From Terriglobia bacterium (lineage in GTDB: Bacteria > Acidobacteriota > Terriglobia > 20CM-2-55-15), in NCBI GenBank assembly GCA_036496425.1, contig DASXLG010000074.1:1-57564 (forward strand): DNA of 57,564 nt, given 5' to 3'. Position numbers and translations under genes: made by a program. Below, in pieces: positions 44,457 to 57,564 of the stretch (position 1 is the first letter of the stretch; each line of letters begins with the position of its first letter). Under the pieces are notes generated by a model. It was not told where the DNA came from, searched no databases, and saw only the letters and a program-made list of their open reading frames with translations.

Positions 44457-46862
44457 TCACAGAACCTGAACGTCGAAATTATGGCCTTCCCACTCGCCGT
44501 TGGCCCAACGGAGGGTGAATTCCAGCTTCGTTCCCGGCGCCAGCCCGGTTGTGGGAATATCGACGAAGCAGACACCTACATTGGTCGGAATGGTCAGATT
44601 CTCTTTCTGTGTAGTCCACACACTGGACGTCCACACCACAGTTGCAGGCGTCAAGAGTTCGATGCGGAGCGTAAACCCGGCCGGAACGGAAGTACTCTTC
44701 TGGTTGAACCGCCACACGACGTATTTAACCGTTTTCTTATCGATCAGATAACGCTGTGCTGTTTGCGGCGGCATGTCGAACACGCGTCCATCCCGGAGAG
44801 AACGGAGCAACTTGATGTATTCCGCATGGGCCCACATGAGGGGCATGGCTGAGCCCGACGGCTTGCCATTGAAGAGTTCGAGTTGCGGCATATCTTCTGC
44901 GTCCCAGACCTGTTCAGGAAGGAATCCTCCCGGACTGGTTTGCGCTTCCAGGACGTGAAGCAGCCGCTCTGCCGCGGTCATGTCGCCGCGGGCAATTTCG
45001 TAGTGGGCGCGCTCGCCGGCGAGCAGCGGCCAGCCGCGTCCGGTACCGGTGCCGTCAAATGGACTGCCGTCGCTGTGTTCGCCGTAACCGTCCTCGTTGT
45101 AGCGATGCCAGACCGGGCCGGTCTTTGTGTCGCTCTTCAATGTGGCATCAATGAGGCGAACCGTGTTCAGGATGCGTGGATCGTCGGCCGCACGCAGTCC
45201 GAATCGGACCAATGCCAGCGCATCGGGGCTGACCACGTTTGCCGCCCTTTCGGAACTCTGGTCCGGGGTTCGATTCTTGATTGGAACAAAACCGAGATAC
45301 GGCGAAGCCGCATCGGCGACATCCGCGGATCCGATACGCACATAATATCCGTCAACTCCGTGCTGCCTGCACAGGCTGGAGTCGTTGACGTAAGTCCATC
45401 TTTCGATGTTCCCATTCCAGATGTCTGCCGTTTCGCGCAGATACGCGGCGGTGCCGGACTCCCCGCTTTCATCGGCGAAGTCTGCCGCCGCCAGGAGCGC
45501 CGCGATTTCGACGGCAAGTGTGAACGGGGAATATCCGGCGTCTTCCTCCCAACGATCTTCGGGAGTCACCGGCCCATTGCAGACAAGATACGTTGCCGCC
45601 CGGCGCACTGCCGGCCAGACATCCAGCTTGTGGAGACCGCCTGCGCGGCGGAGCGCGTCCGCCAGGAGTATTGGAAAGGCCGTTTCATCCATCTGTATCC
45701 CGGTCCAATAGGGTGTGCCTTCCAGCCACATATTCTGCGGCCAATGACCGTCGGGTTCCTGCGTTGAGAGAAGGTAAACCAGCACCTGATATGCGCCTTC
45801 GAGGTCGCCAGAAGCCAGTAACGCGCCCGCACCTTCGACTTGATCGCGAGTCCAGACCAGATGGTAGCCGCCGAGATCGTTGTCGCCCTTCGCGAAGCCC
45901 CAGGGAATCGAAGGGCTTGCGATGATACCGCCGGGAATATCTTTCGATTCGCACGCTTTGAGCAGCGCCGTACTCACCCGATAGTAGTTGATGCCGTTCG
46001 ACGACTTGTCGAGCGGCTCGAGCTTCATTTGATAATGCTGCCAGTCTTCAACGTACATCTCAACGGCGTCCTCAAACGGCTGGATGAGTGAACTCAAGGC
46101 CTGTTGGCCGGCCTCCGAACCGTCGCGTCCAAAGCCGAGAGCCAGCGTGAATTCGCCATTCGAGGGAAGCGAGATTTCTCCGGTGAGCGCAATATTTCCA
46201 TCGAGGGCTTCGTCGAAGAACCACGTCATGCGGTTATGCGTGCTGATGTCCTGCCAGCCGTCGCTGAAGCCCACATAGCCGCAACTCATTGCGGAAAAAG
46301 ATGTCGAACAGGCGAGCGCGAGGGCGGTTGAGTTTCGTTGCGCGAAAAGCATCGGCATGCCCTTGTGCCGGCCGGTCCAGCCGCGGTTTCCGAATCCCTG
46401 GTTCTGGAGATGCGGCGCCAGCAGCGCATACACGTGATAGTCCTGCATTGCGCCCTGCAACGCTTCAAAGCGGATATGCTGCAGCACGACATCGCGGCGG
46501 GGATCCGCGATCACGGTTTTATGTAACCGGTAGCGGCCCTCTTTGCAGGTATTCGTCAATAAATAGCCGGGCACACCCGGCGCGATCGGAGTAGTGGTGC
46601 TCTCGGTGTCCCGTTTCTCCTCGGAGAAGAAGCGGGAACCGTCCGTGATGAGCAGTCCAAGGTCGCGTGTGTTCGGCTGGTCGATAAAAGGAAAATAAAC
46701 TTCATCGAGGATGCCGTGCGAAATCGTGAACCACACGCGGCTGTTCGTCCCTGCCGAAGTTCCTGCACCTGTTTTGGCGCTGGATGTCCATGTCGGAGAG
46801 ATGCCGGGGCGGCCGGGAGGAACAGAATTAGTCATTTCCATCCACGATCCCACATCGCGCAT
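44457..46862 (-). CDS. GH15 glucoamylase-like glucan 1,4-alpha-glucosidase
   Basis: 801 residues from the first ATG (46862); ATGs at 46841 and 46835 are also possible. The N-terminal beta-sandwich (about 20-280) has VWFTISHGILDEVYFPFIDQ. The (alpha/alpha)6 barrel follows with GGYHLVWTRDQVEGAGALLA, HWPQNMWLEGTPYWTGIQMD and a late PSGSAMPLMWAHAEYIKLL. These match bacterial glucoamylases that release glucose from starch or maltodextrins. A C-terminal extension (about 690-801) resembles a starch-related beta domain. No signal peptide is visible, so it may act on internal glycogen. It is divergent from a DUF4159 gene 35 bp away. Confidence 0.92.
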   Translation of the reverse strand: MRDVGSWMEMTNSVPPGRPGISPTWTSSAKTGAGTSAGTNSRVWFTISHGILDEVYFPFIDQPNTRDLGLLITDGSRFFSEEKRDTESTTTPIAPGVPGYLLTNTCKEGRYRLHKTVIADPRRDVVLQHIRFEALQGAMQDYHVYALLAPHLQNQGFGNRGWTGRHKGMPMLFAQRNSTALALACSTSFSAMSCGYVGFSDGWQDISTHNRMTWFFDEALDGNIALTGEISLPSNGEFTLALGFGRDGSEAGQQALSSLIQPFEDAVEMYVEDWQHYQMKLEPLDKSSNGINYYRVSTALLKACESKDIPGGIIASPSIPWGFAKGDNDLGGYHLVWTRDQVEGAGALLASGDLEGAYQVLVYLLSTQEPDGHWPQNMWLEGTPYWTGIQMDETAFPILLADALRRAGGLHKLDVWPAVRRAATYLVCNGPVTPEDRWEEDAGYSPFTLAVEIAALLAAADFADESGESGTAAYLRETADIWNGNIERWTYVNDSSLCRQHGVDGYYVRIGSADVADAASPYLGFVPIKNRTPDQSSERAANVVSPDALALVRFGLRAADDPRILNTVRLIDATLKSDTKTGPVWHRYNEDGYGEHSDGSPFDGTGTGRGWPLLAGERAHYEIARGDMTAAERLLHVLEAQTSPGGFLPEQVWDAEDMPQLELFNGKPSGSAMPLMWAHAEYIKLLRSLRDGRVFDMPPQTAQRYLIDKKTVKYVVWRFNQKSTSVPAGFTLRIELLTPATVVWTSSVWTTQKENLTIPTNVGVCFVDIPTTGLAPGTKLEFTLRWANGEWEGHNFDVQVL

Positions 46863-47716: not shown

Positions 47717-49075
47717 ATGAAATCCCTGGGGATAACGCTGGCGTTTTCGGCAATTGCTGTTCTGTTGCCGGTGGCCGTTGCCCACGCGCAGCACGAGCGG
47801 CAGCTCCCACCTCCAGAGGAGCTCTCGCATGACCCTTCCACTGAGCCATCGCGGGGCGATTACAGCGCGAAATTCTTCGACGACTTACAGAAAATCTTCG
47901 GGCGTTTTCGCGATTCAGACCTGAAACGGGTGTTCGATGCCGCGCAGCCGGTTCAATGCTCCGATCTGATCACTGATAAAGGCGAATGGCGGGAAGTCGC
48001 CTTCTTCAATGAAAACCGCAAATTAGGCGACTGGTACCACAAAACACTGGACGAAGTGAAAGCCGATCTCTCCGTCTACATCTTCAAGGGCGCGTGCGGC
48101 GGGCAGCGCGCGGCGCTCAGGGTCACCACTGAATTTCCAGTCGGGGAAAGCATTGAACGTGCCGAGGCCGGGAAAATACGGTTCGACCAGATCGACGTAA
48201 ACCTGAATGCGCCTGCGAGCGTGATATTCGATCCGCAGAGCAGGGCATACACCTTCGACCTCCCCTACCTGTTTCACGTCCGGAGTGAAACAGGCGATAT
48301 GGTCTATACGCTGCAGGCGCGGACCTATGATGACCGGTATGATCCGACGGTGACGAATCATTGGGATTGCAAGGCCGTCAAAGCGGACGACGTCACATAC
48401 CAATTTTTGATCTGTCACAATACTCTGGTTCCTCGTGATGCGAGAGAAAGGTACGAAGACAAGGGCTCGTTCGGCTCGTCGGCATATTCGATCCTCTCCG
48501 ACGGCAAAGAGGCCTCGTCCAGCGTCCACCTTTCATTCGGAGACACGGAGCCCGAAAAGGAAACTACGGTACCTCGTCCTGATGATGGAGTCCGAAATGA
48601 CCGAAGAAATGACCGTCAACCCGAATTCCCTCCGCTTGCTCCCGCGTCACCGTCCTGGCGCCCGGCGCCGGCGCAGGCGAATTTGAGTGAAACCGGCGAT
48701 AGTGAATTCAGGTTGCGGTTCAAGCCTGAAGCCTGGAAGGGAAGGATCGACAAAGCTCAATTGATCGAGGATGGAACTCTGCCGGGTTCCAGTCTGCCTC
48801 CTCGAAATAAGGATTATTGTATGTGGCGGCCCAGTGCCGCCACACTAGCCAACAAGTTGCTCGAACCGGCGCCTGCGCCCACGGTTCAAACGATGCAGTT
48901 CAGGAAGGATCCTCAGGGGGTGGTAGCCGTGATCGAGATGGATAACGATTCCGGTTCGGCCGTCGGCTCATTGCAGTGCTTCTTCGCCCAGGCTCGAACT
49001 CCCGCCGATATTACGGTCGCGCGCTGGCTCTCCATCGTTGGTTCGAGCGTTGTGCTCGAGTCTCCCGCTCAATAA
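47717..49075 (+). CDS. Exported protein of unknown function
   Basis: 452 residues with a signal peptide (LAFSAIAVLLPVAVAHA). The mature N-terminal domain has DDLQKIFGRFRDSDLKRVFD and QCSDLITDKGEWREVAFFNE; a beta-rich middle (FDLPYLFHVRSETGDMVYTL) leads to a Pro/Arg/Asn-rich linker (about 290-325) and a C-terminal domain with FRLRFKPEAWKGRID and DYCMWRPSA. Several cysteines could form disulfides. No family is recognised. It sits between DUF4159 and the ABC-GAF gene, whose start directly abuts its stop, so the three probably form an operon. Confidence 0.75.
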   Translation: MKSLGITLAFSAIAVLLPVAVAHAQHERQLPPPEELSHDPSTEPSRGDYSAKFFDDLQKIFGRFRDSDLKRVFDAAQPVQCSDLITDKGEWREVAFFNENRKLGDWYHKTLDEVKADLSVYIFKGACGGQRAALRVTTEFPVGESIERAEAGKIRFDQIDVNLNAPASVIFDPQSRAYTFDLPYLFHVRSETGDMVYTLQARTYDDRYDPTVTNHWDCKAVKADDVTYQFLICHNTLVPRDARERYEDKGSFGSSAYSILSDGKEASSSVHLSFGDTEPEKETTVPRPDDGVRNDRRNDRQPEFPPLAPASPSWRPAPAQANLSETGDSEFRLRFKPEAWKGRIDKAQLIEDGTLPGSSLPPRNKDYCMWRPSAATLANKLLEPAPAPTVQTMQFRKDPQGVVAVIEMDNDSGSAVGSLQCFFAQARTPADITVARWLSIVGSSVVLESPAQ

Positions 49076-50419
49076 ATGGAAGCCGTCATTCGGATCCAGA
49101 ATCTCAATCATTACTATGGCAGCGGTAGTCTGCGAAAACAGGTTTTGTACGATATCTCGCTGGACATCTACCCGGGCGAGATCGTCATTCTGACCGGCCC
49201 GTCGGGCTCGGGAAAGACGACGTTGCTGACGCTTTGCGGCGCTCTCCGCTCGATCGAAGAAGGCAGCGTCAAGGTTCTGGGCCACGAGTTAAACGGCGCA
49301 ACACCGGGAGAGCTTGTGGCGATACGGCAGAATATCGGATTCATATTCCAGGCTCACAATCTGATTGATGCCCTCACGGCCGTGCAGAACGTCCAGATGT
49401 CCCTCGGACTGGATAAACTCAGCCAGTCGGAAGCAAGAAAGCGCTCCCTCTCAATGCTGGGCGCTGTCGGTCTGGAAAACCGGGTGGACTATTTGCCCGA
49501 TCGTCTGTCGGGCGGCCAGAAGCAGCGCGTTGCGATCGCTCGGGCGCTGGTGCGCAAGCCGAAGATCGTCCTCGCGGACGAACCCACTGCCGCGCTCGAC
49601 AAAAAATCCGGTCGCGAAGTTGTCGAGCTGCTTCAGAACCTTGCGCGAGCGCAGAGTTGCACGATCCTGCTGGTGACTCACGACAACCGTATTCTCGATA
49701 TTGCCGACCGCATCGTGACGCTCGAAGACGGCCGCCTCACGTCGTTTGCCGCGGGAATGGTCGCGAACACCGGCCATATGCTGGCGGCGTTCGCTCAGCT
49801 TTCGCGTAAAGGCGAATTGATCCGGCATGTCACACGTCTCTCCTCACATCAGTTTGTCGAAATGCTGGACCAGATCACGTCGGAATTCGAGCAGTTCCTG
49901 AAGGTGGTGGACATCACGCACCAGGAAGCTGCGGGAGCCGAGGCAGTCGGTGCGCTTTTCGACCAGATGTTGGAGGCGGTCACTCTGAAGATTCGGGACC
50001 TGCTTCAAGCGGAGCGGGCGACGATCTTGCTGGTCGATAAAGGCGCAGGCAAACTCCGTTCAAAGATTGCCCACAGCGGCGGCAGTGAACCGCTGGTCAT
50101 CGAAATCCCGATCGGCACGGGCATTGCGGGCCGCGTCGCCGCTACCGGAGAGACGCGGAACATACCGGATCCATACCGCGACCCGGACTTTAACCCGGAT
50201 GTCGACCGCCAGACGGGCTATACGACGCGCAGCATCCTCTGCATGCCGATTTTTGACCGGCAGAAGCATGTTTTTGCGGTGACCCAGCTGTTGAATAAAA
50301 ACGGCGGCCACGCGTTTACGGCGGAAGACGAATCGGCCTTTCGGGACTTTGCGGCGCCGCTGGGACTGATCCTGGAGAGCTGCCTGCAGATGACCCGCGC
50401 ACCGGAAGGGGTTATTTAG
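49076..50419 (+). CDS. DevA-type ABC ATPase fused to a GAF domain
   Basis: 447 residues. Residues 1-230 are an ABC ATPase of the DevA/MacB-like exporter group: GSLRKQVLYDISLDIYPGE, Walker A GPSGSGKTT (41-49), FQAHNLIDALTAVQNVQMSL, signature LSGGQKQ (144-150) and Walker B IVLADEP (164-170). Residues about 285-440 are a GAF domain (LLQAERATILLVDKGAGKLR, then GIAGRVAATGETRNIPDPY). ATP-driven transport under direct control of a sensed ligand is the likely meaning. No permease or membrane-fusion protein gene is adjacent, so its transport partner must be elsewhere. It ends convergent with the PilZ gene, overlapping by 4 bp. Confidence 0.93.
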   Translation: MEAVIRIQNLNHYYGSGSLRKQVLYDISLDIYPGEIVILTGPSGSGKTTLLTLCGALRSIEEGSVKVLGHELNGATPGELVAIRQNIGFIFQAHNLIDALTAVQNVQMSLGLDKLSQSEARKRSLSMLGAVGLENRVDYLPDRLSGGQKQRVAIARALVRKPKIVLADEPTAALDKKSGREVVELLQNLARAQSCTILLVTHDNRILDIADRIVTLEDGRLTSFAAGMVANTGHMLAAFAQLSRKGELIRHVTRLSSHQFVEMLDQITSEFEQFLKVVDITHQEAAGAEAVGALFDQMLEAVTLKIRDLLQAERATILLVDKGAGKLRSKIAHSGGSEPLVIEIPIGTGIAGRVAATGETRNIPDPYRDPDFNPDVDRQTGYTTRSILCMPIFDRQKHVFAVTQLLNKNGGHAFTAEDESAFRDFAAPLGLILESCLQMTRAPEGVI

Positions 50420-50811: not shown

Positions 50812-50960
50812 TTAAGATCTTATCGGCACGTGAGCATATTTCATTAGCGGCCGGTTAAATCCCGGATCGATTTGACAGCTTGCTTATTAAACGTCACCTT
50901 CTTATGATCCCGATCGTCCCGTACGTAAATTGTTTGCCAACTCAATTCCAGAGGAGATAT

Positions 50961-51341
50961 ATGGCTGAAATCACACAAGCTCAATTCCTGCAACGTTACG
51001 GCAACCTCATGGTGCAAATCTGGGGAATGCCTTCTCTGTTGGACCGTTTCAAAAAAGAACCCACTGCGGTCTTGAAGGAGCATGGGTTGGACACTGGAAA
51101 AGCCTCGGTAACCCTTCTGCAACCAGGCACACCGAACGCCCTCGGTATTAATGATTCGACAGCGGAAAGCGCCTACCAGCTGTGGGTTGAAGGTCAGAAG
51201 AAAGGGAACATCCCGTTTTATTTTGTCTCACAACCACCCGAAGGTACCGGCAGCGAGTCGCTCTCGGACAGCGAGTTGATGGCGGTTGCGGGCGGCGCGT
51301 TGAGCATCAGCTCCTGCTGCTGCACACCCTGCTGCTGCTAA
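50961..51341 (+). CDS. NHLP-type RiPP precursor with Cys-rich core
   Basis: 126 residues from the ATG at 50961, which has a strong ribosome binding site (AGAGGAG). The leader (about 1-112) follows the nitrile-hydratase-like leader pattern: WGMPSLLDRFKKEPTAVLKE, HGLDTGKASVTLLQ and a terminal LSDSELMAVAGG with the double-glycine cleavage site (111-112). The core, residues 113-126, is ALSISSCCCTPCCC, with six cysteines as two triplets around Thr-Pro plus serines. Such precursors are modified (for example to thioethers or azoles) and exported by peptidase-ABC transporters. No modifying enzyme, NHLM transporter or second precursor is recognised nearby, so it is an orphan here. Confidence 0.85.
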   Translation: MAEITQAQFLQRYGNLMVQIWGMPSLLDRFKKEPTAVLKEHGLDTGKASVTLLQPGTPNALGINDSTAESAYQLWVEGQKKGNIPFYFVSQPPEGTGSESLSDSELMAVAGGALSISSCCCTPCCC

Positions 51342-51449: not shown

Positions 51450-52811
51450 CTACTTTACTTTTCTGAATTTCCAACCGTACATCAATCCGCCATAAAAATT
51501 AAACCATCTTGCCGCCTCGCGGTCCTTGAACGGATAGTCGGCGCCCAGCCGCCGCGCTGTGGCCAGTCCGGACACAAAGCACGTTTCCTGGCTGTTGAGC
51601 AAGGTGTGGGCGCCGCAGTGCCAGCTTCGCCTCTTCCCCTGAATGAACTTGAACAGATTGATCACGACAGCAACATGAAACACATCGTGCACGATGTGTT
51701 GAAACCACCATCTCTTGATGATCTTTTGCGGATCGATTTCGCTGACTGGGTTGTAGGTTACCAGGCATGGCTTGTCCGACTTCTTCGCCCAGGGCTGCTG
51801 GTTATGCATGATGTATGTGATTTCGTAATTGTCCGGTCTCGCCCCGTATTGTTCGATGTAGTTACTTCTCGTATCGAGCGGCTCCGTCTCGTTTACCGGC
51901 AGCACGGAGGCGTCGTGGTGAACCACGGTGTGATTGTGCAGTTCACTTTCATAACGTATGGAGGACAGCAGGAAGGTTTCGAGGAAGCCCGGCTTATCGA
52001 GCATCATGAGGGTCTGGTTGGCGTTGCAGGCGAAGATGACCTGATCGAATTCCTCCGTTTGTCCGTTCATGTCTTCGACGGTTACTTTCGATCGCTGCCG
52101 GTGAACTTTCCTTACCGCGCGCCCGAGATAGATCTTGTCGCGAAACGGCTCCGACATTGCCTGATAGATCCGCCTCGTGCCCTGGTCCCAGGTCTGCATC
52201 GGCGTGGCCGTTTCAATATCGAAAAAATCCAGGTAGCGTGCAAACATAGAGGCCGGCATGTCGAAGACATTCGTGGCCATCAGAAAATTCACGAACAGCG
52301 GTTTGAGGATCTTGTAGCGAAAGCCGCCGGAGAATCGGCCGAGGTTCAGCAGCGTTCCCATGCTGACATAGTTGAACGGATTCAGCATGCCAAGTAGTTT
52401 TGATCTCGTTTTACTGAGAACATTGATTGCTTTCAGAAACCGGAGCAGTTTCTGAAACTTTTCGATCTCCGGCAGAAGCTCCTTGCGAATCCTGGAGTTG
52501 AAGTCGTGCGCGTAAAGATCGCCGCGATACCTCACGGCGTAGCTGAACCGTGTAGGGACGAGCGGAATCCCATGTTCCTGCATGAATTGGACGTAGTTGT
52601 GGTACACAGTCGGAATGCAGGCTGTGACAGAGATGTCAAAACACACGGAACGGCCATCATCCTGCGGCATGTCCACAGTAATCGCGTTGCCGCCCAGCCT
52701 GTCATTGGCTTCAAAAAGCCGGATATCGAATCGATCCGGATGCCTGCTCAACGCCCATGCGGCCCCGAGTCCGGCGACACCGCCGCCGACGATTGCGATT
52801 TTCTGGGGCAC
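51450..52811 (-). CDS. FAD-dependent amine-oxidase-like oxidoreductase divergent from the sterol operon
   Basis: 453 residues from GTG at 52811, chosen because AGGAGG lies five bases upstream; a longer frame to 52928 would run into the sterol operon start. The Rossmann FAD motif is IAIVGGGVAGLGAAWALSRH at residues 3-22. Further motifs are RLFEANDRLGGNAITV, DQVIFACNANQTL and a C-terminal FAD contact LNSQETCFVSGLATARRLGA. It resembles COG2907-type predicted FAD proteins, not squalene epoxidase. Starts 26 bp apart on opposite strands suggest shared control with the sterol genes, so it may oxidise or reduce a sterol or isoprenoid. That is inference. Confidence 0.8.
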   Translation of the reverse strand: MPQKIAIVGGGVAGLGAAWALSRHPDRFDIRLFEANDRLGGNAITVDMPQDDGRSVCFDISVTACIPTVYHNYVQFMQEHGIPLVPTRFSYAVRYRGDLYAHDFNSRIRKELLPEIEKFQKLLRFLKAINVLSKTRSKLLGMLNPFNYVSMGTLLNLGRFSGGFRYKILKPLFVNFLMATNVFDMPASMFARYLDFFDIETATPMQTWDQGTRRIYQAMSEPFRDKIYLGRAVRKVHRQRSKVTVEDMNGQTEEFDQVIFACNANQTLMMLDKPGFLETFLLSSIRYESELHNHTVVHHDASVLPVNETEPLDTRSNYIEQYGARPDNYEITYIMHNQQPWAKKSDKPCLVTYNPVSEIDPQKIIKRWWFQHIVHDVFHVAVVINLFKFIQGKRRSWHCGAHTLLNSQETCFVSGLATARRLGADYPFKDREAARWFNFYGGLMYGWKFRKVK

Positions 52812-52837: not shown

Positions 52838-53401
52838 ATGGGCTACATTTTTGAACCCGGCATTTTACAGCAAATCGCGAGAGACGCTCTTTCGAAAAAC
52901 CCGGCGATGGAAGACCTCGTTCCTTCAATTGTCGCGGAACTCTACAAACGCTATCCGGGCCACATCAATACGACTCCCGAGTGGGTTTTCAACAATGCCG
53001 GCGGCGCGATGGGCGCCATGTACATCCTGCACGCGTCGATATCGGAATACGTCATGATTTTCGGCACTCCTCTGGGTACCGAAGGGCATACAGGACGGTT
53101 CGCGGCGGATGATTACTTCATTATCCTGAACGGCGAGCAGTGGGCGTTTGAGCCGGGCCAGTTCGCGCCTGAAATCTACCGGCCTGGCGACATGCACCAT
53201 TTGCGCAGACGCCAGGCGAAACAATACAGGATGGCGGGAGGGTGTTGGGCGTTAGAATATGCCCGCGGTGTTATACCGGCGATGCTGCCGTTCGGAGTCG
53301 CGGATACATTTACCAGCACGTTAGACTTCAGAACCCTCATTCGTACCTTGTGGTTATATGCGACGAGCGCAGTTCGCGAATTGCTGCACGGAAAGATCTG
53401 A
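52838..53401 (+). CDS. ERG2: ERG2/sigma-1-receptor family sterol C8-C7 isomerase
   Basis: 187 residues. The ATG at 52838 gives MGYIFEPGIL, the family start, without the N-terminal membrane helix of eukaryotic homologues. The ERG2/SIGMAR1 pattern is unmistakable: EWVFNNAGGAMGAMYILHAS, ISEYVMIFGTPLGTEGHTGR, DDYFIILNGEQWAFE and WALEYARGVIPAMLPFGVAD, with TSTLDFRTL. Glu140, in WALEYARG, aligns with the catalytic/ligand-binding Glu of the family. ERG2 moves the sterol 8(9) double bond to 7(8). It heads the sterol operon, 15 bp before the SDR gene. Bacterial members are rare. Confidence 0.93.
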   Translation: MGYIFEPGILQQIARDALSKNPAMEDLVPSIVAELYKRYPGHINTTPEWVFNNAGGAMGAMYILHASISEYVMIFGTPLGTEGHTGRFAADDYFIILNGEQWAFEPGQFAPEIYRPGDMHHLRRRQAKQYRMAGGCWALEYARGVIPAMLPFGVADTFTSTLDFRTLIRTLWLYATSAVRELLHGKI

Positions 53402-53416
53402 AATCACGCAACGGCG

Positions 53417-54445
53417 ATGACGACGTTAATTACAGGAGCAAGCGGTCATCTCGGCGCCAATCTCGTCCGCAGGCTGCTCAATGACGGGCAAACGGTCCGC
53501 GCGCTCGTCCGCCGGGGCAGCAACAACGCGGCCTTGGACGGTTTGAATGTCGAACGGATCTATGGCGATCTTCGCGAGCCCGTGCCTGTCGCCGCGGCGG
53601 TCCGCGGATGCCGTCAGATTCACCATTGCGCGGCCTTGCTCTCGACGACCACAGGCCGCGAGCGGGAAATCTTCGACTGCAATGTGATCGGCACGCGCAA
53701 CCTGTTGCGGGCCGCGCTCGATGCCGGAGTATCCCGTGTCGTTGTTTCAGGCTCGTTAAGTGCCGTTGGTCATGTGGATGGCCGGCCGAGCGACGAGACT
53801 GTGCCTTTCTATCCGTTCGAGAAACTGCCGCCGTATTCGCACACGAAAGCGGGCGTGGAACACGAATGCCTCAAAGCCGCAGCCGATGGCCTGGACGTGG
53901 TCATCGCGACGTCCTGTGCGATCATCGGTCCCAATGATTTCAAGCCCTCGCGCATGGGAAAGACCCTGGTGGATTTTTCCCTCGGCAAGTTGCGCGCATA
54001 CATTCCGGGCGGTTTTACCTTTGTTTCCGCAGCCGACATGGTCGAAGGGCATATGCTCTGCATGGAAAAAGGCCGCAGGGGTCAGAAGTATATTTTCAGC
54101 ACAGAGTTTCTGACTGTCGACGAACTGATGGCGATTTTCGAACAGGTCACCGGCCACAGGCGCCCGCGGTTCCGGCTGCCCGCGCCGCTCATGGCCGGCA
54201 TCGCAGAGGTTTCGAGCTTCGTGCTGACGAATTTCTTTCCCGGCAGGGCGCAGCGCTTTACACCGGCGGCCGTGCGATTCCTGCGAATGCAGCGGAAGGC
54301 CGACTCGAGCAAGGCGATGCAGGAACTCGGCTACCGTCCGACCTCCATCGCCCAGGCGGTCCGTGAAGCCCACGAATGCTTCGTCCGGCGCGGTGTCATA
54401 CCGGCTCCGGCGCGCGTGCTGGTTTCACGGCCCCGGGAGTTGTAG
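53417..54445 (+). CDS. sdmB: Extended SDR, sterol 4-alpha-carboxylate 3-dehydrogenase (SdmB-like)
   Basis: 342 residues. Nucleotide-binding TLITGASGHLGANLVRRLL starts the protein. The catalytic set is Ser in VVVSGSLSAVG (about 111-115), Tyr140 and Lys144 in PPYSHTKAGVEHE. The C-terminal half has GGFTFVSAADMVEGHMLCME, typical of 3-beta-hydroxysteroid dehydrogenase/NSDHL-like and SdmB proteins. In Methylococcus capsulatus SdmB completes C-4 demethylation after SdmA oxidises the methyl group. The gene lies 15 bp after ERG2 and 2 bp before CYP51. Another epimerase or dehydrogenase role is possible, but the neighbours strongly favour sterols. Confidence 0.85.
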   Translation: MTTLITGASGHLGANLVRRLLNDGQTVRALVRRGSNNAALDGLNVERIYGDLREPVPVAAAVRGCRQIHHCAALLSTTTGREREIFDCNVIGTRNLLRAALDAGVSRVVVSGSLSAVGHVDGRPSDETVPFYPFEKLPPYSHTKAGVEHECLKAAADGLDVVIATSCAIIGPNDFKPSRMGKTLVDFSLGKLRAYIPGGFTFVSAADMVEGHMLCMEKGRRGQKYIFSTEFLTVDELMAIFEQVTGHRRPRFRLPAPLMAGIAEVSSFVLTNFFPGRAQRFTPAAVRFLRMQRKADSSKAMQELGYRPTSIAQAVREAHECFVRRGVIPAPARVLVSRPREL

Positions 54446-54447
54446 CT

Positions 54448-55800
54448 GTGACGACTGCAACGGAAGCCAGGAAGCTTCCGCCTGAACTCCGTGGCGGACT
54501 GCCGTTTTTCGGTCACGCCATGGAGTTTCATCGCGATCCCGCCGGCCTCCTGCGGCGCGGCCGCGACCGGTTTGGTGAAATTTTCTCCTTTCTGCTGGCA
54601 GGCAAGCTTGTCACCGTACTCACAGGGCCCGAGGCGAACGAGGCTTTCTTTCATGCGCCGGATGATCAGTTGAGCGCGAAAGAAGCCTACCAGTTCACGG
54701 TGCCGATCTTCGGTAAAGGCATCGCCTACGACGTCAGTCCCGATGTGATGAGCGAGCAGTTGGGCCTGCTCTTTCCCGCCTTGCGCGATCAGCGGTTGCA
54801 GACCTACGCCCGGTTCATGGCGGAAGAAGCGGATGCGTACTTTGACAACTGGGGCGAGCAGGGAGAAGCCGATCTCCTCGTAGCCATGAATGAGTTGACA
54901 ACGTTCATTGCGAGCCGCTGTCTGATCGGTCATGAATTCCGTCAGAATCTTTCGACGGAATTTGCTCATCTGTATCACGATCTGGAGGGCGGCCTGAACC
55001 TCGTTGCATTCTTCAAACCGGACATGCCGCTGCCTTCATTCAAGCGCCGCGATCAAGCTCGCGTCCGCATGGCCGAGCTGATTTCGCAGATCATCGCCAC
55101 CCGCCGCAGCACCGGTGTGGAAGGCGAGGATTTTCTGCAGACCTTGATGACGGCGCGTTATTCCGACGGCAGGGCGCTGACCGACGACGAAATTACCGGA
55201 CTCCTGCTGACCGTGATTTTTGCCGGGCAGCATACCAGCGCCGTCCTGGCGACCTGGACTGGAGTTCTGCTTCTTCAGCACCGCCAGTATCTGCCGGGCA
55301 TTCTTAAGGAACAACAGGAAGTCCTGAACGGCAGCCGGAATATGACGCTCGACGCGTTGAGGCGGCTCAGCGCTCTGGAACGCGCCATCAAGGAAGCGGA
55401 ACGGCTGCGGCCGCCCTTGATTATGCTGATGCGGAAAATCGTGCGTGACTTCACGTACCGCGGCTGCCGTGTCCCCGCAGGCGGGTTGCTGATGGTTTCA
55501 CCCGCGGTTTCGCACCGCCTCCCGGAAGTGTTCCAGAATCCGGACGCATATGACCCCGGCCGCTTCGCGCCTGGCCGCGAGGAAGACCGGAAAAGTTCTT
55601 ATACACTGATCGGATTCGGTGGAGGCAGGCATCGTTGTATCGGTCTGACGTTTGCCCAGCAGCAGGTCAAAGTGATCTGGAGCGTGATCCTGCAGCATTT
55701 CGATGTGGAATTGGTGAAACTTCAACATGAGCCGGACTACTCGACCTTCGTCATCGGTCCGCGTCCTCCATGTTTGATTCGCTATCGGAGAAAGGCATGA
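54448..55800 (+). CDS. cyp51: Sterol 14-alpha-demethylase CYP51
   Basis: 450 residues from GTG at 54448, two bases after the SDR stop and eight after GGGAG. CYP51 diagnostics are present: the B-C loop YQFTVPIFGKGIAYD (81-95), I-helix FAGQHTSAVLATW (258-270), ExxR E316-R319 before RPPLIMLMRKIVR, and the heme loop FGGGRHRCIG with Cys397. There is no membrane anchor, as in soluble bacterial CYP51 proteins. It removes the 14-alpha methyl of lanosterol-type sterols by three oxidations using electrons from a redox partner; no ferredoxin gene is seen nearby. The stop overlaps the Rieske gene start as ATGA. Confidence 0.96.
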   Translation: MTTATEARKLPPELRGGLPFFGHAMEFHRDPAGLLRRGRDRFGEIFSFLLAGKLVTVLTGPEANEAFFHAPDDQLSAKEAYQFTVPIFGKGIAYDVSPDVMSEQLGLLFPALRDQRLQTYARFMAEEADAYFDNWGEQGEADLLVAMNELTTFIASRCLIGHEFRQNLSTEFAHLYHDLEGGLNLVAFFKPDMPLPSFKRRDQARVRMAELISQIIATRRSTGVEGEDFLQTLMTARYSDGRALTDDEITGLLLTVIFAGQHTSAVLATWTGVLLLQHRQYLPGILKEQQEVLNGSRNMTLDALRRLSALERAIKEAERLRPPLIMLMRKIVRDFTYRGCRVPAGGLLMVSPAVSHRLPEVFQNPDAYDPGRFAPGREEDRKSSYTLIGFGGGRHRCIGLTFAQQQVKVIWSVILQHFDVELVKLQHEPDYSTFVIGPRPPCLIRYRRKA

Positions 55801-56876
55801 GCACTCAACCTCATCTTCCGGCATTCCATGAAGCTCGAAACCCGCGCCAGAAAGCGCGTTCGGCCGGGCTCCATCCGGATTACTGGTACGCCGTCGAGTA
55901 TGACGCCGCCGTGAAGCCCGGCCGCGTTGTCGAGGTTATATTCTGGAACCGGTCGATAGCCCTGTTCCGCGGAATGGACGGCAAGTTGCGCGCGTTGGAA
56001 AATCGCTGCGCTCACCGGCAGTTGAAGCTTTCGGCCGGCGAGGTCGAGGGCTGCAATCTGGTCTGCGCGTATCACGGATGGGGATACAACGAAGAAGGGC
56101 GCGTGGTTCAAATACCCCACGATCTCTTCGGAAGGGACATGCCGTCGTTCAGGGTGCCGTCGTACCCGGTGAAAGTCCGCTATGGCCTGATCTGGATTTT
56201 TCCGGGTAATCCGGCGCTCGCCGATCAACGGCAGATTCCAGAGATACCGGAATTAAAAGGCGACCGGCAGTGGGCGTGCGTTCCGATCGATTTCAAGTGG
56301 CGGGCGCACCATTCGATGATCATTGATAACGTGAGCGACTTCACGCATGCTCACCTGCACCGCAAATACCGCCCCTTCATCGACGCAAAACTCATAAAGT
56401 GCGAGATGGTGGGCGAGAAGGTTTTCGTGAGCTATAACACGAGGATCGGGACCGGACGTTTCTCCGGTCTTTTTGTCGATCGTGATCGGGTCGATACGGA
56501 TTTCATCGAGCTCTGCCACGACTACCCATACCAATGGTCGAATACAGGCGGAAAGATAAAGCACTGGTGCTTCGTATTGCCTATTGACGAGCGAACGAGC
56601 CGCGTGTTCTTTCTGTTTTATTTTGACGCGCTGAAAATTCCTTTCACCTCGTTACGCATTCCTCAATGGCTGATGAAGCCGTTGCTGAAAATTGCGAACG
56701 AGATATCCATCAAGCCTCTCCTGCGCCAGGACGGATTTGCCGTCGAAGCGGAACAGCAGGGCTACGATACTCATTTCGATGCGCCGCTTGCCGAACTCAA
56801 TCCCGCCGTCAATTTGTTTCAACAACTCACTATCCGCAAGTGGGAAGAGCACGTCGCCAGTGACCGGCGCTCTTGA
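55797..56876 (+). CDS. sdmA: Rieske non-heme iron oxygenase, sterol C-4 demethylase (SdmA-like)
   Basis: 359 residues from the ATG at 55797. The Rieske centre is CAHRQLKLSAGEVEGCNLVC AYHGWGY in two parts: C71-x-H73 and C90-x2-H93. The mononuclear iron site is SMIIDNVSDFTHAHLHRKYR with Asp181, His184 and His188. It has the length and context of SdmA, which oxidises the C-4 methyl group stepwise to a carboxylate. Animal DAF-36/Neverland 7-desaturases are also Rieske enzymes but usually have an N-terminal membrane helix, absent here. Reductase partners are not visible. It overlaps both CYP51 and the cyclase gene. Confidence 0.9.
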   Translation: MSTQPHLPAFHEARNPRQKARSAGLHPDYWYAVEYDAAVKPGRVVEVIFWNRSIALFRGMDGKLRALENRCAHRQLKLSAGEVEGCNLVCAYHGWGYNEEGRVVQIPHDLFGRDMPSFRVPSYPVKVRYGLIWIFPGNPALADQRQIPEIPELKGDRQWACVPIDFKWRAHHSMIIDNVSDFTHAHLHRKYRPFIDAKLIKCEMVGEKVFVSYNTRIGTGRFSGLFVDRDRVDTDFIELCHDYPYQWSNTGGKIKHWCFVLPIDERTSRVFFLFYFDALKIPFTSLRIPQWLMKPLLKIANEISIKPLLRQDGFAVEAEQQGYDTHFDAPLAELNPAVNLFQQLTIRKWEEHVASDRRS

Positions 56877-57564
56877 TCGCGGCGTCAATCATCTGAATTC
56901 GCAACAGCGTGAAAACGGCTGCTGGGAAGGGGAGATGGTCTGGTGCACGATGATTCTCTCCCAGTACGTCATCGTTCAACATGTTGCCGGGAGGACCTTC
57001 GATGAACAAACCCGGGAGCAGATGGTTCGATATTTCCGCGTCAGCCGCACGCCCGAAGGTGTCTGGGGTCTGCATCCCGAATCGGGCGGCTATGTCTTCT
57101 TCACGACGTTGGCTTATATTGCGCTTCGGTTGCTTGGCATAACCGCGGACGACCCGCTTGCCGCAACGGCCCGGCAATGGCTGCGCGGACAAAAGGGCGG
57201 AGTGCTCGCAATTCCGAGCTGGGGCAAGTTCTGGCTCGCCACCGTAGGACTGTACGGATATGAGGGGGTGAATCCGGTTCCGCCGGAAATGTTTCTGCTT
57301 CCAAAATCGCTGCCATTGCATCCCCACCGTTATTACTGCCACACCCGCCTGATCTATATGGGAATGGCCTATCTCTATGGATCGCGTTGCAACGCAGATC
57401 TCGGGCCGATTCGGAACGATTTGCGCCGGGAGCTCTACGAGACCCCTTACGAGGCAATCGACTTTTCGGCTTGGCGGCACACTATAGCCGAATCGGATCT
57501 CTATGTGTCGCCGACCCGATGGCTGCGGATGGCCTATGATTTGCTGCGCGTTTACGAGCGGGTT
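56861..57564 (+). CDS. osc: Oxidosqualene cyclase, N-terminal part (truncated by window edge)
   Basis: Starting at GTG (56861, overlapping sdmA by 16 bp), about 234 residues are present. The sequence LDRGVNHLNSQQRENGCWEG is the first QW-like repeat. It continues with GGYVFFTTLAYIALRLLGI, IPSWGKFWLATVGLYGYEGV, PPEMFLLPKSLPLHPHRYYC and RLIYMGMAYLYGSR. The PSWGKFWL and LLPxxLPxHPxR-xxC blocks are those of oxidosqualene cyclases rather than squalene-hopene cyclases. The product (lanosterol or cycloartenol) depends on C-terminal residues beyond the window. The enzyme supplies the sterol skeleton for the upstream genes. Confidence 0.95.

Follow-up and report, generated by a model that had tools for sequence, protein, structure and literature searches.

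An anchorless ERG2/sigma-1-receptor family protein, predicted to be a sterol delta8-delta7 isomerase, in an acidobacterial sterol operon

What does an ERG2/sigma-1-receptor family protein that lacks the membrane helix of its eukaryotic relatives do in an acidobacterium, and does it tell us anything about the source of the eukaryotic enzyme? The window (the whole 57,564-nucleotide stretch analyzed, contig DASXLG010000074.1 of a Terriglobia bacterium) carries an ORF at 52838-53401 (+) whose 187-residue product begins MGYIFEPG. The ERG2 core motifs quoted by a first-pass annotation were found in it, and a Pfam scan gave PF04622 alone, at 276.4 bits (E 1.6e-82; curated cut-off 21 bits). The match covers positions 22-210 of the 210 in the profile and misses just its N-terminal stretch, where the anchor lies. 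No match to the EBP family, the other type of sterol isomerase considered, was found. By sequence, its solved relatives in the PDB copy searched were sigma-1 receptors only (125 bits), and small bacterial proteins such as this one could be taken up for structures and enzymology of a drug-target family for which that search matched just the non-catalytic member. We read the gene as a bacterial ERG2-type sterol delta8-to-delta7 isomerase in a native acidobacterial sterol pathway, with a probability of roughly 0.8.

The missing anchor is not an artifact of start-codon choice. The reading frame upstream of 52838 is open only from 52682, and no hidden hydrophobic helix was found in this extension plus the first 33 residues (best 19-residue Kyte-Doolittle mean 0.58, versus 2.24 in human sigma-1 and, by the same measure, 2.30 in yeast ERG2). 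Since the N-terminal transmembrane helix of the eukaryotic ER-anchored form is absent with any possible start, as the first-pass annotation had proposed for the annotated one, we do not file the protein as that form. The yeast ERG2 sequence used here and in our trees and alignments is a presumed one; it scores 316 bits to PF04622. In sigma-1, the C-terminal helices rest against the membrane, and because helices of this type are retained in the 187-residue protein, the absence of a membrane helix need not make it soluble; these helices by themselves may, we infer, hold it to the membrane.

The sterol-operon setting was also borne out. Downstream and in the same direction lie genes for an SdmB-like sterol C4-demethylation reductase (53417-54445, +; NF052578, 331 bits), a CYP51 sterol 14alpha-demethylase (54376-55800, +; longest ORF, best PDB matches CYP51 at 407 bits), an SdmA-like Rieske 4-methylsterol oxygenase (55770-56876, +; longest ORF, NF052579, 405 bits) and the 5' part of a 2,3-oxidosqualene cyclase (OSC; 56860-57564, +; TIGR03463 positions 2-227), which is cut by the contig end. 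We write SdmA-like and SdmB-like because both matches score under the strict curated cut-offs (600 for each, an equivalog cut-off for NF052578). The OSC remainder (TIGR03463 229-634) lies on another contig (G000:C96:4546-5772), where a squalene epoxidase gene adjoins it. The evidence for the operon comes from a single fragmented MAG, with its OSC split over two contigs. An ERG24-type gene at the end of contig C180 matches 4quv, a delta14-sterol reductase of solved structure, at 557 bits. Where yeast has ERG25/26/27, the bacterial operon has the SdmA/SdmB-like genes. Candidates for squalene epoxidase, OSC, CYP51, ERG24, SdmA and SdmB are thus encoded in the genome, so that by sequence each step on the way to a C4-demethylated delta8 sterol has a candidate gene; lack of a C8 sterol pathway, named by the first-pass annotation as evidence against its reading, was not what we found at the gene level.

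In the proposed pathway, squalene would be epoxidised by the product of the C96 gene, and OSC would cyclise the epoxide, giving a product of lanosterol type; at the position of human 453 the OSC has Val, which has been read as indicating lanosterol (PMC10152446). CYP51 would then demethylate C14, the ERG24-type product of the C180 gene would reduce at C14, and the SdmA/SdmB-like proteins would demethylate C4 to yield a delta8 sterol; other bacteria vary in removing one C4 methyl or both (PMC10202945). The 187-residue protein would finally shift delta8 to delta7, a reaction suggested by its kinship and gene setting. Bacteria do make delta7 sterols: lathosterol in Nannocystis (PMC4919349) and cholesta-7,24-dienol in Enhygromyxa salina (PMC10202945), both of them myxobacteria.

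Two other genes may touch this pathway. A second PF01222 gene on contig C170 (252 bits; L009 1495-2967, G000:C170) could by sequence be a further sterol reductase, and the ORF beside it appears by eye to hold the end of a P450 followed by cyclic-nucleotide-binding-like domains. An FAD-dependent oxidoreductase gene (51450-52811, -; PF01593) diverges from ERG2, with about 26 bases between the two starts; no homologue lies near ERG2 in the other loci searched, and it is at most a putative pathway member.

ERG2 in bacterial sterol clusters is already known. It occurs with OSC, CYP51 and ERG24 in clusters of Ircinia sponge symbionts (PMC9531527), which we liken to ours by description rather than by sequence and in which SdmA/SdmB are not annotated; for Calothrix, a homologue for C-8 isomerisation has been noted, in a passage that does not name its family (PMC10202945). 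Our additions are an acidobacterial example bearing SdmA/SdmB-like genes, a tally of anchorless forms and the existence of two pocket types.

How unusual is the short form? The first-pass annotation had singled it out, a view that did not survive a wider search. The family turned up in another 63 bacterial genomes, most of them from Myxococcota. Scanning named genomes, we located it at 14 loci, in Planctomycetota, Gammaproteobacteria including Methylococcales, Rokubacteria, Myxococcales, Hydrogenedentes, Acidimicrobiia and Terriglobia, and a search of the class of one Myxococcales MAG found it in 52/317 genomes (3 of the 52 already among the named-scan loci). In the other samples it is much rarer, with 1/396 in the window's phylum and 1/296 in the Acidimicrobiia MAG's class, in both cases a genome already known; none of the viral contigs, phages and plasmids searched held a relative. 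A start codon falls within 3 residues of the core start in 58/63 bacterial sequences, so bacteria normally have the anchorless form, a trait of a broad branch and nothing peculiar to this genome. One clear exception is a Hydrogenedentes locus (L019 4031-4735) with a hydrophobic, lipobox-like N-terminus (FLLLTVLCTGC), in a genome where no OSC was found; the N-terminus of L079 is borderline.

Across genomes, the gene keeps company with sterol synthesis. Among 21 relatives, ERG2 occurs only in the two genomes with OSC, and in the named scan OSC accompanies ERG2 in 13 of 14 genomes. In the 317 genomes of the Myxococcota class, OSC was found in 46/52 ERG2 genomes versus 65/265 others (Fisher p 2e-18, an optimistic value as the species are related); of the six ERG2-bearing genomes without OSC at the strict threshold, at least one (G1063) has an OSC fragment beside ERG2. 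An ERG24-type gene adjoins ERG2 in 12/14 named loci, spanning five phyla.

The first-pass annotation saw in the protein a window onto the family's origin or transfer. That bearing is real, although it belongs to a whole myxobacterial clade: in a tree of 56 bacterial rows, the protein falls inside a 22-row clade that is otherwise Myxococcota (100/99). Its best identity is 62%, to myxobacterial L094, and it shares with this and other Myxococcota ERG2-type proteins (L098, L101 and others) the start position and a Phe at the sigma-1 Asp126 column; several of their genes adjoin CYP51, whereas host phylum and neighbour gene order differ. When sigma-1 receptors and the presumed yeast ERG2 sequence were added, yeast joined the myxobacterial clade and sigma-1 fell outside on a long branch. 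These trees hold three eukaryotic rows and have long branches, and on them we make no claim about the direction or number of origins.

A fungal or protist ERG2 gene might nevertheless have entered the acidobacterium recently and lost its anchor. The presumed yeast ERG2 sequence is 51-52% identical (about 52% in the core), shares the Glu and the DDYF segment (Asp91-Asp92-Tyr93-Phe94, codons at 53108-53119, +), and pairs with our protein in the best trees (94/77); it differs in having an N-terminal membrane helix and residing in the ER. A first small tree had even paired the two to the exclusion of bacteria (100/98), with eukaryotes not forming one clade (AU p 0.004). We dropped that reading when Myxococcota were added: the pairing weakened (89/77 and 94/77), identity proved higher to L094, and the AU p for one eukaryotic clade rose to 0.059, with p 0.32 for yeast outside the myxobacterial clade. 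As the 100/99 placement holds with eukaryotes in or out of the tree, the myxobacterial relatives are themselves anchorless, and the neighbouring SdmA/SdmB-like genes are bacterial, we regard recent transfer from a eukaryote as improbable.

Does the protein resemble an enzyme or the sigma-1 receptor? An AlphaFold2 model built from 15 input sequences (pLDDT 76, pTM 0.77; weak at 53-58 and 148-162) has the cupin-like barrel of sigma-1, matching human 5hk1 residues 33-218, the portion after the sigma-1 membrane helix, at Z 20.9 and 2.5 A over 181 residues (VIA), with a Foldseek TM of 0.85; the next matches, from other families, reach Z of about 10. A structural comparison with sigma-1 was among the checks that the first-pass annotation had proposed. 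The family Glu it had reported as kept, Glu140 (codon 53255-53257, +), aligns with human sigma-1 Glu172 and is invariant in 64/64 bacterial members. Identity to sigma-1 (5hk1, 7w2b) is about 39%.

A sigma-1-like, non-enzymatic role in sterol binding or as a chaperone would draw on the same fold and on the absence of isomerase activity in the sigma-1 receptor itself (PMC8293995), and since sigma-1 has both fold and Glu, these alone do not prove catalysis. The pocket argues otherwise. The Asp126/Glu172 pair of sigma-1 proper is not found: Phe94 occupies the Asp126 column, and the pocket is of the ERG2 type, with the DDYF signature common to our protein, the presumed yeast ERG2 sequence and much of the myxobacterial clade. 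The gene is also part of a biosynthetic operon, and elsewhere in bacteria family members have ERG24-type genes next to them, which together leave a non-enzymatic role very unlikely. For the isomerase that we favour, the barrel would bury the sterol ring, and an acid/base group around Glu140, with Asp91/Asp92 replacing sigma-1 Asp126, would put a proton onto C9 and take one off C7 without a cofactor.

Two pocket types recur among the bacterial loci (L010-L023 and L060-L108), with Asp at sigma-1 position 126 in 40/64 and Phe in 22/64; genomes G967 and G968 each carry one of both (L100/L091 and L097/L089). Asp126 is common to sigma-1 and those 40 rows, and Phe126 to the myxobacterial clade and the presumed yeast ERG2 sequence, where position 124 is acidic in most. 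Eukaryotic ERG2 could conceivably derive from an anchorless myxobacterial Phe126 type, and sigma-1 from or with the Asp126 type, with ER anchors gained in each within eukaryotes; we offer this as speculation, and rather doubtful. The broad, anchorless bacterial branch makes it possible to test whether sterol isomerisation came to eukaryotes from myxobacteria, an origin already suggested for the sterol pathway (PMC12004948), and the present protein, a real though not exceptional case, may help to trace the source of the eukaryotic enzyme.

The host is an acidobacterium of class Terriglobia. That the sterol island came from another organism through contamination of the contig or bin is scarcely credible, even with a bin of 407 contigs at 4.2% contamination and with OSC and ERG2 both absent from five sampled genus mates, because a gene 6 kb away (44457-46862) is matched at 77% and 75% identity in its genus mates, the family of 47717-49075 is present in 5/5 mates and 0/3 other genomes searched, G+C is even along the contig, and the flanks are bacterial in any case. 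The flanks thus belong to this acidobacterial genus and not to eukaryotic contamination, a possibility the first-pass annotation had raised against itself. Given genus mates without OSC and ERG2, the island was probably acquired, or else kept here and lost by the others, and we document a near-complete sterol gene set in this one member. The loci compared did not reach an empty insertion site in the mates, one of which has a neighbouring gene arranged differently.

A different cluster occurs in another Terriglobia genome (G011; L007 7287-14636), the second ERG2 genome among the relatives, which corresponds to the named MAG L013 and shares the host's class; it has ERG2, an ERG24-type reductase, two methyltransferases, a Rieske oxygenase and a geranylgeranyl-reductase-like gene. 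One methyltransferase has a sterol methyltransferase C-terminal domain, and the gene content suggests side-chain alkylated sterols as products. Back in the window, 50880-51341 (+) encodes a small protein that ends in SISSCCCTPCCC and weakly matches the nitrile-hydratase-leader (TOMM) profile TIGR04351 (31 bits; cut-off 65); near an ABC-transporter/GAF gene (49076-50419), it is a possible RiPP precursor.
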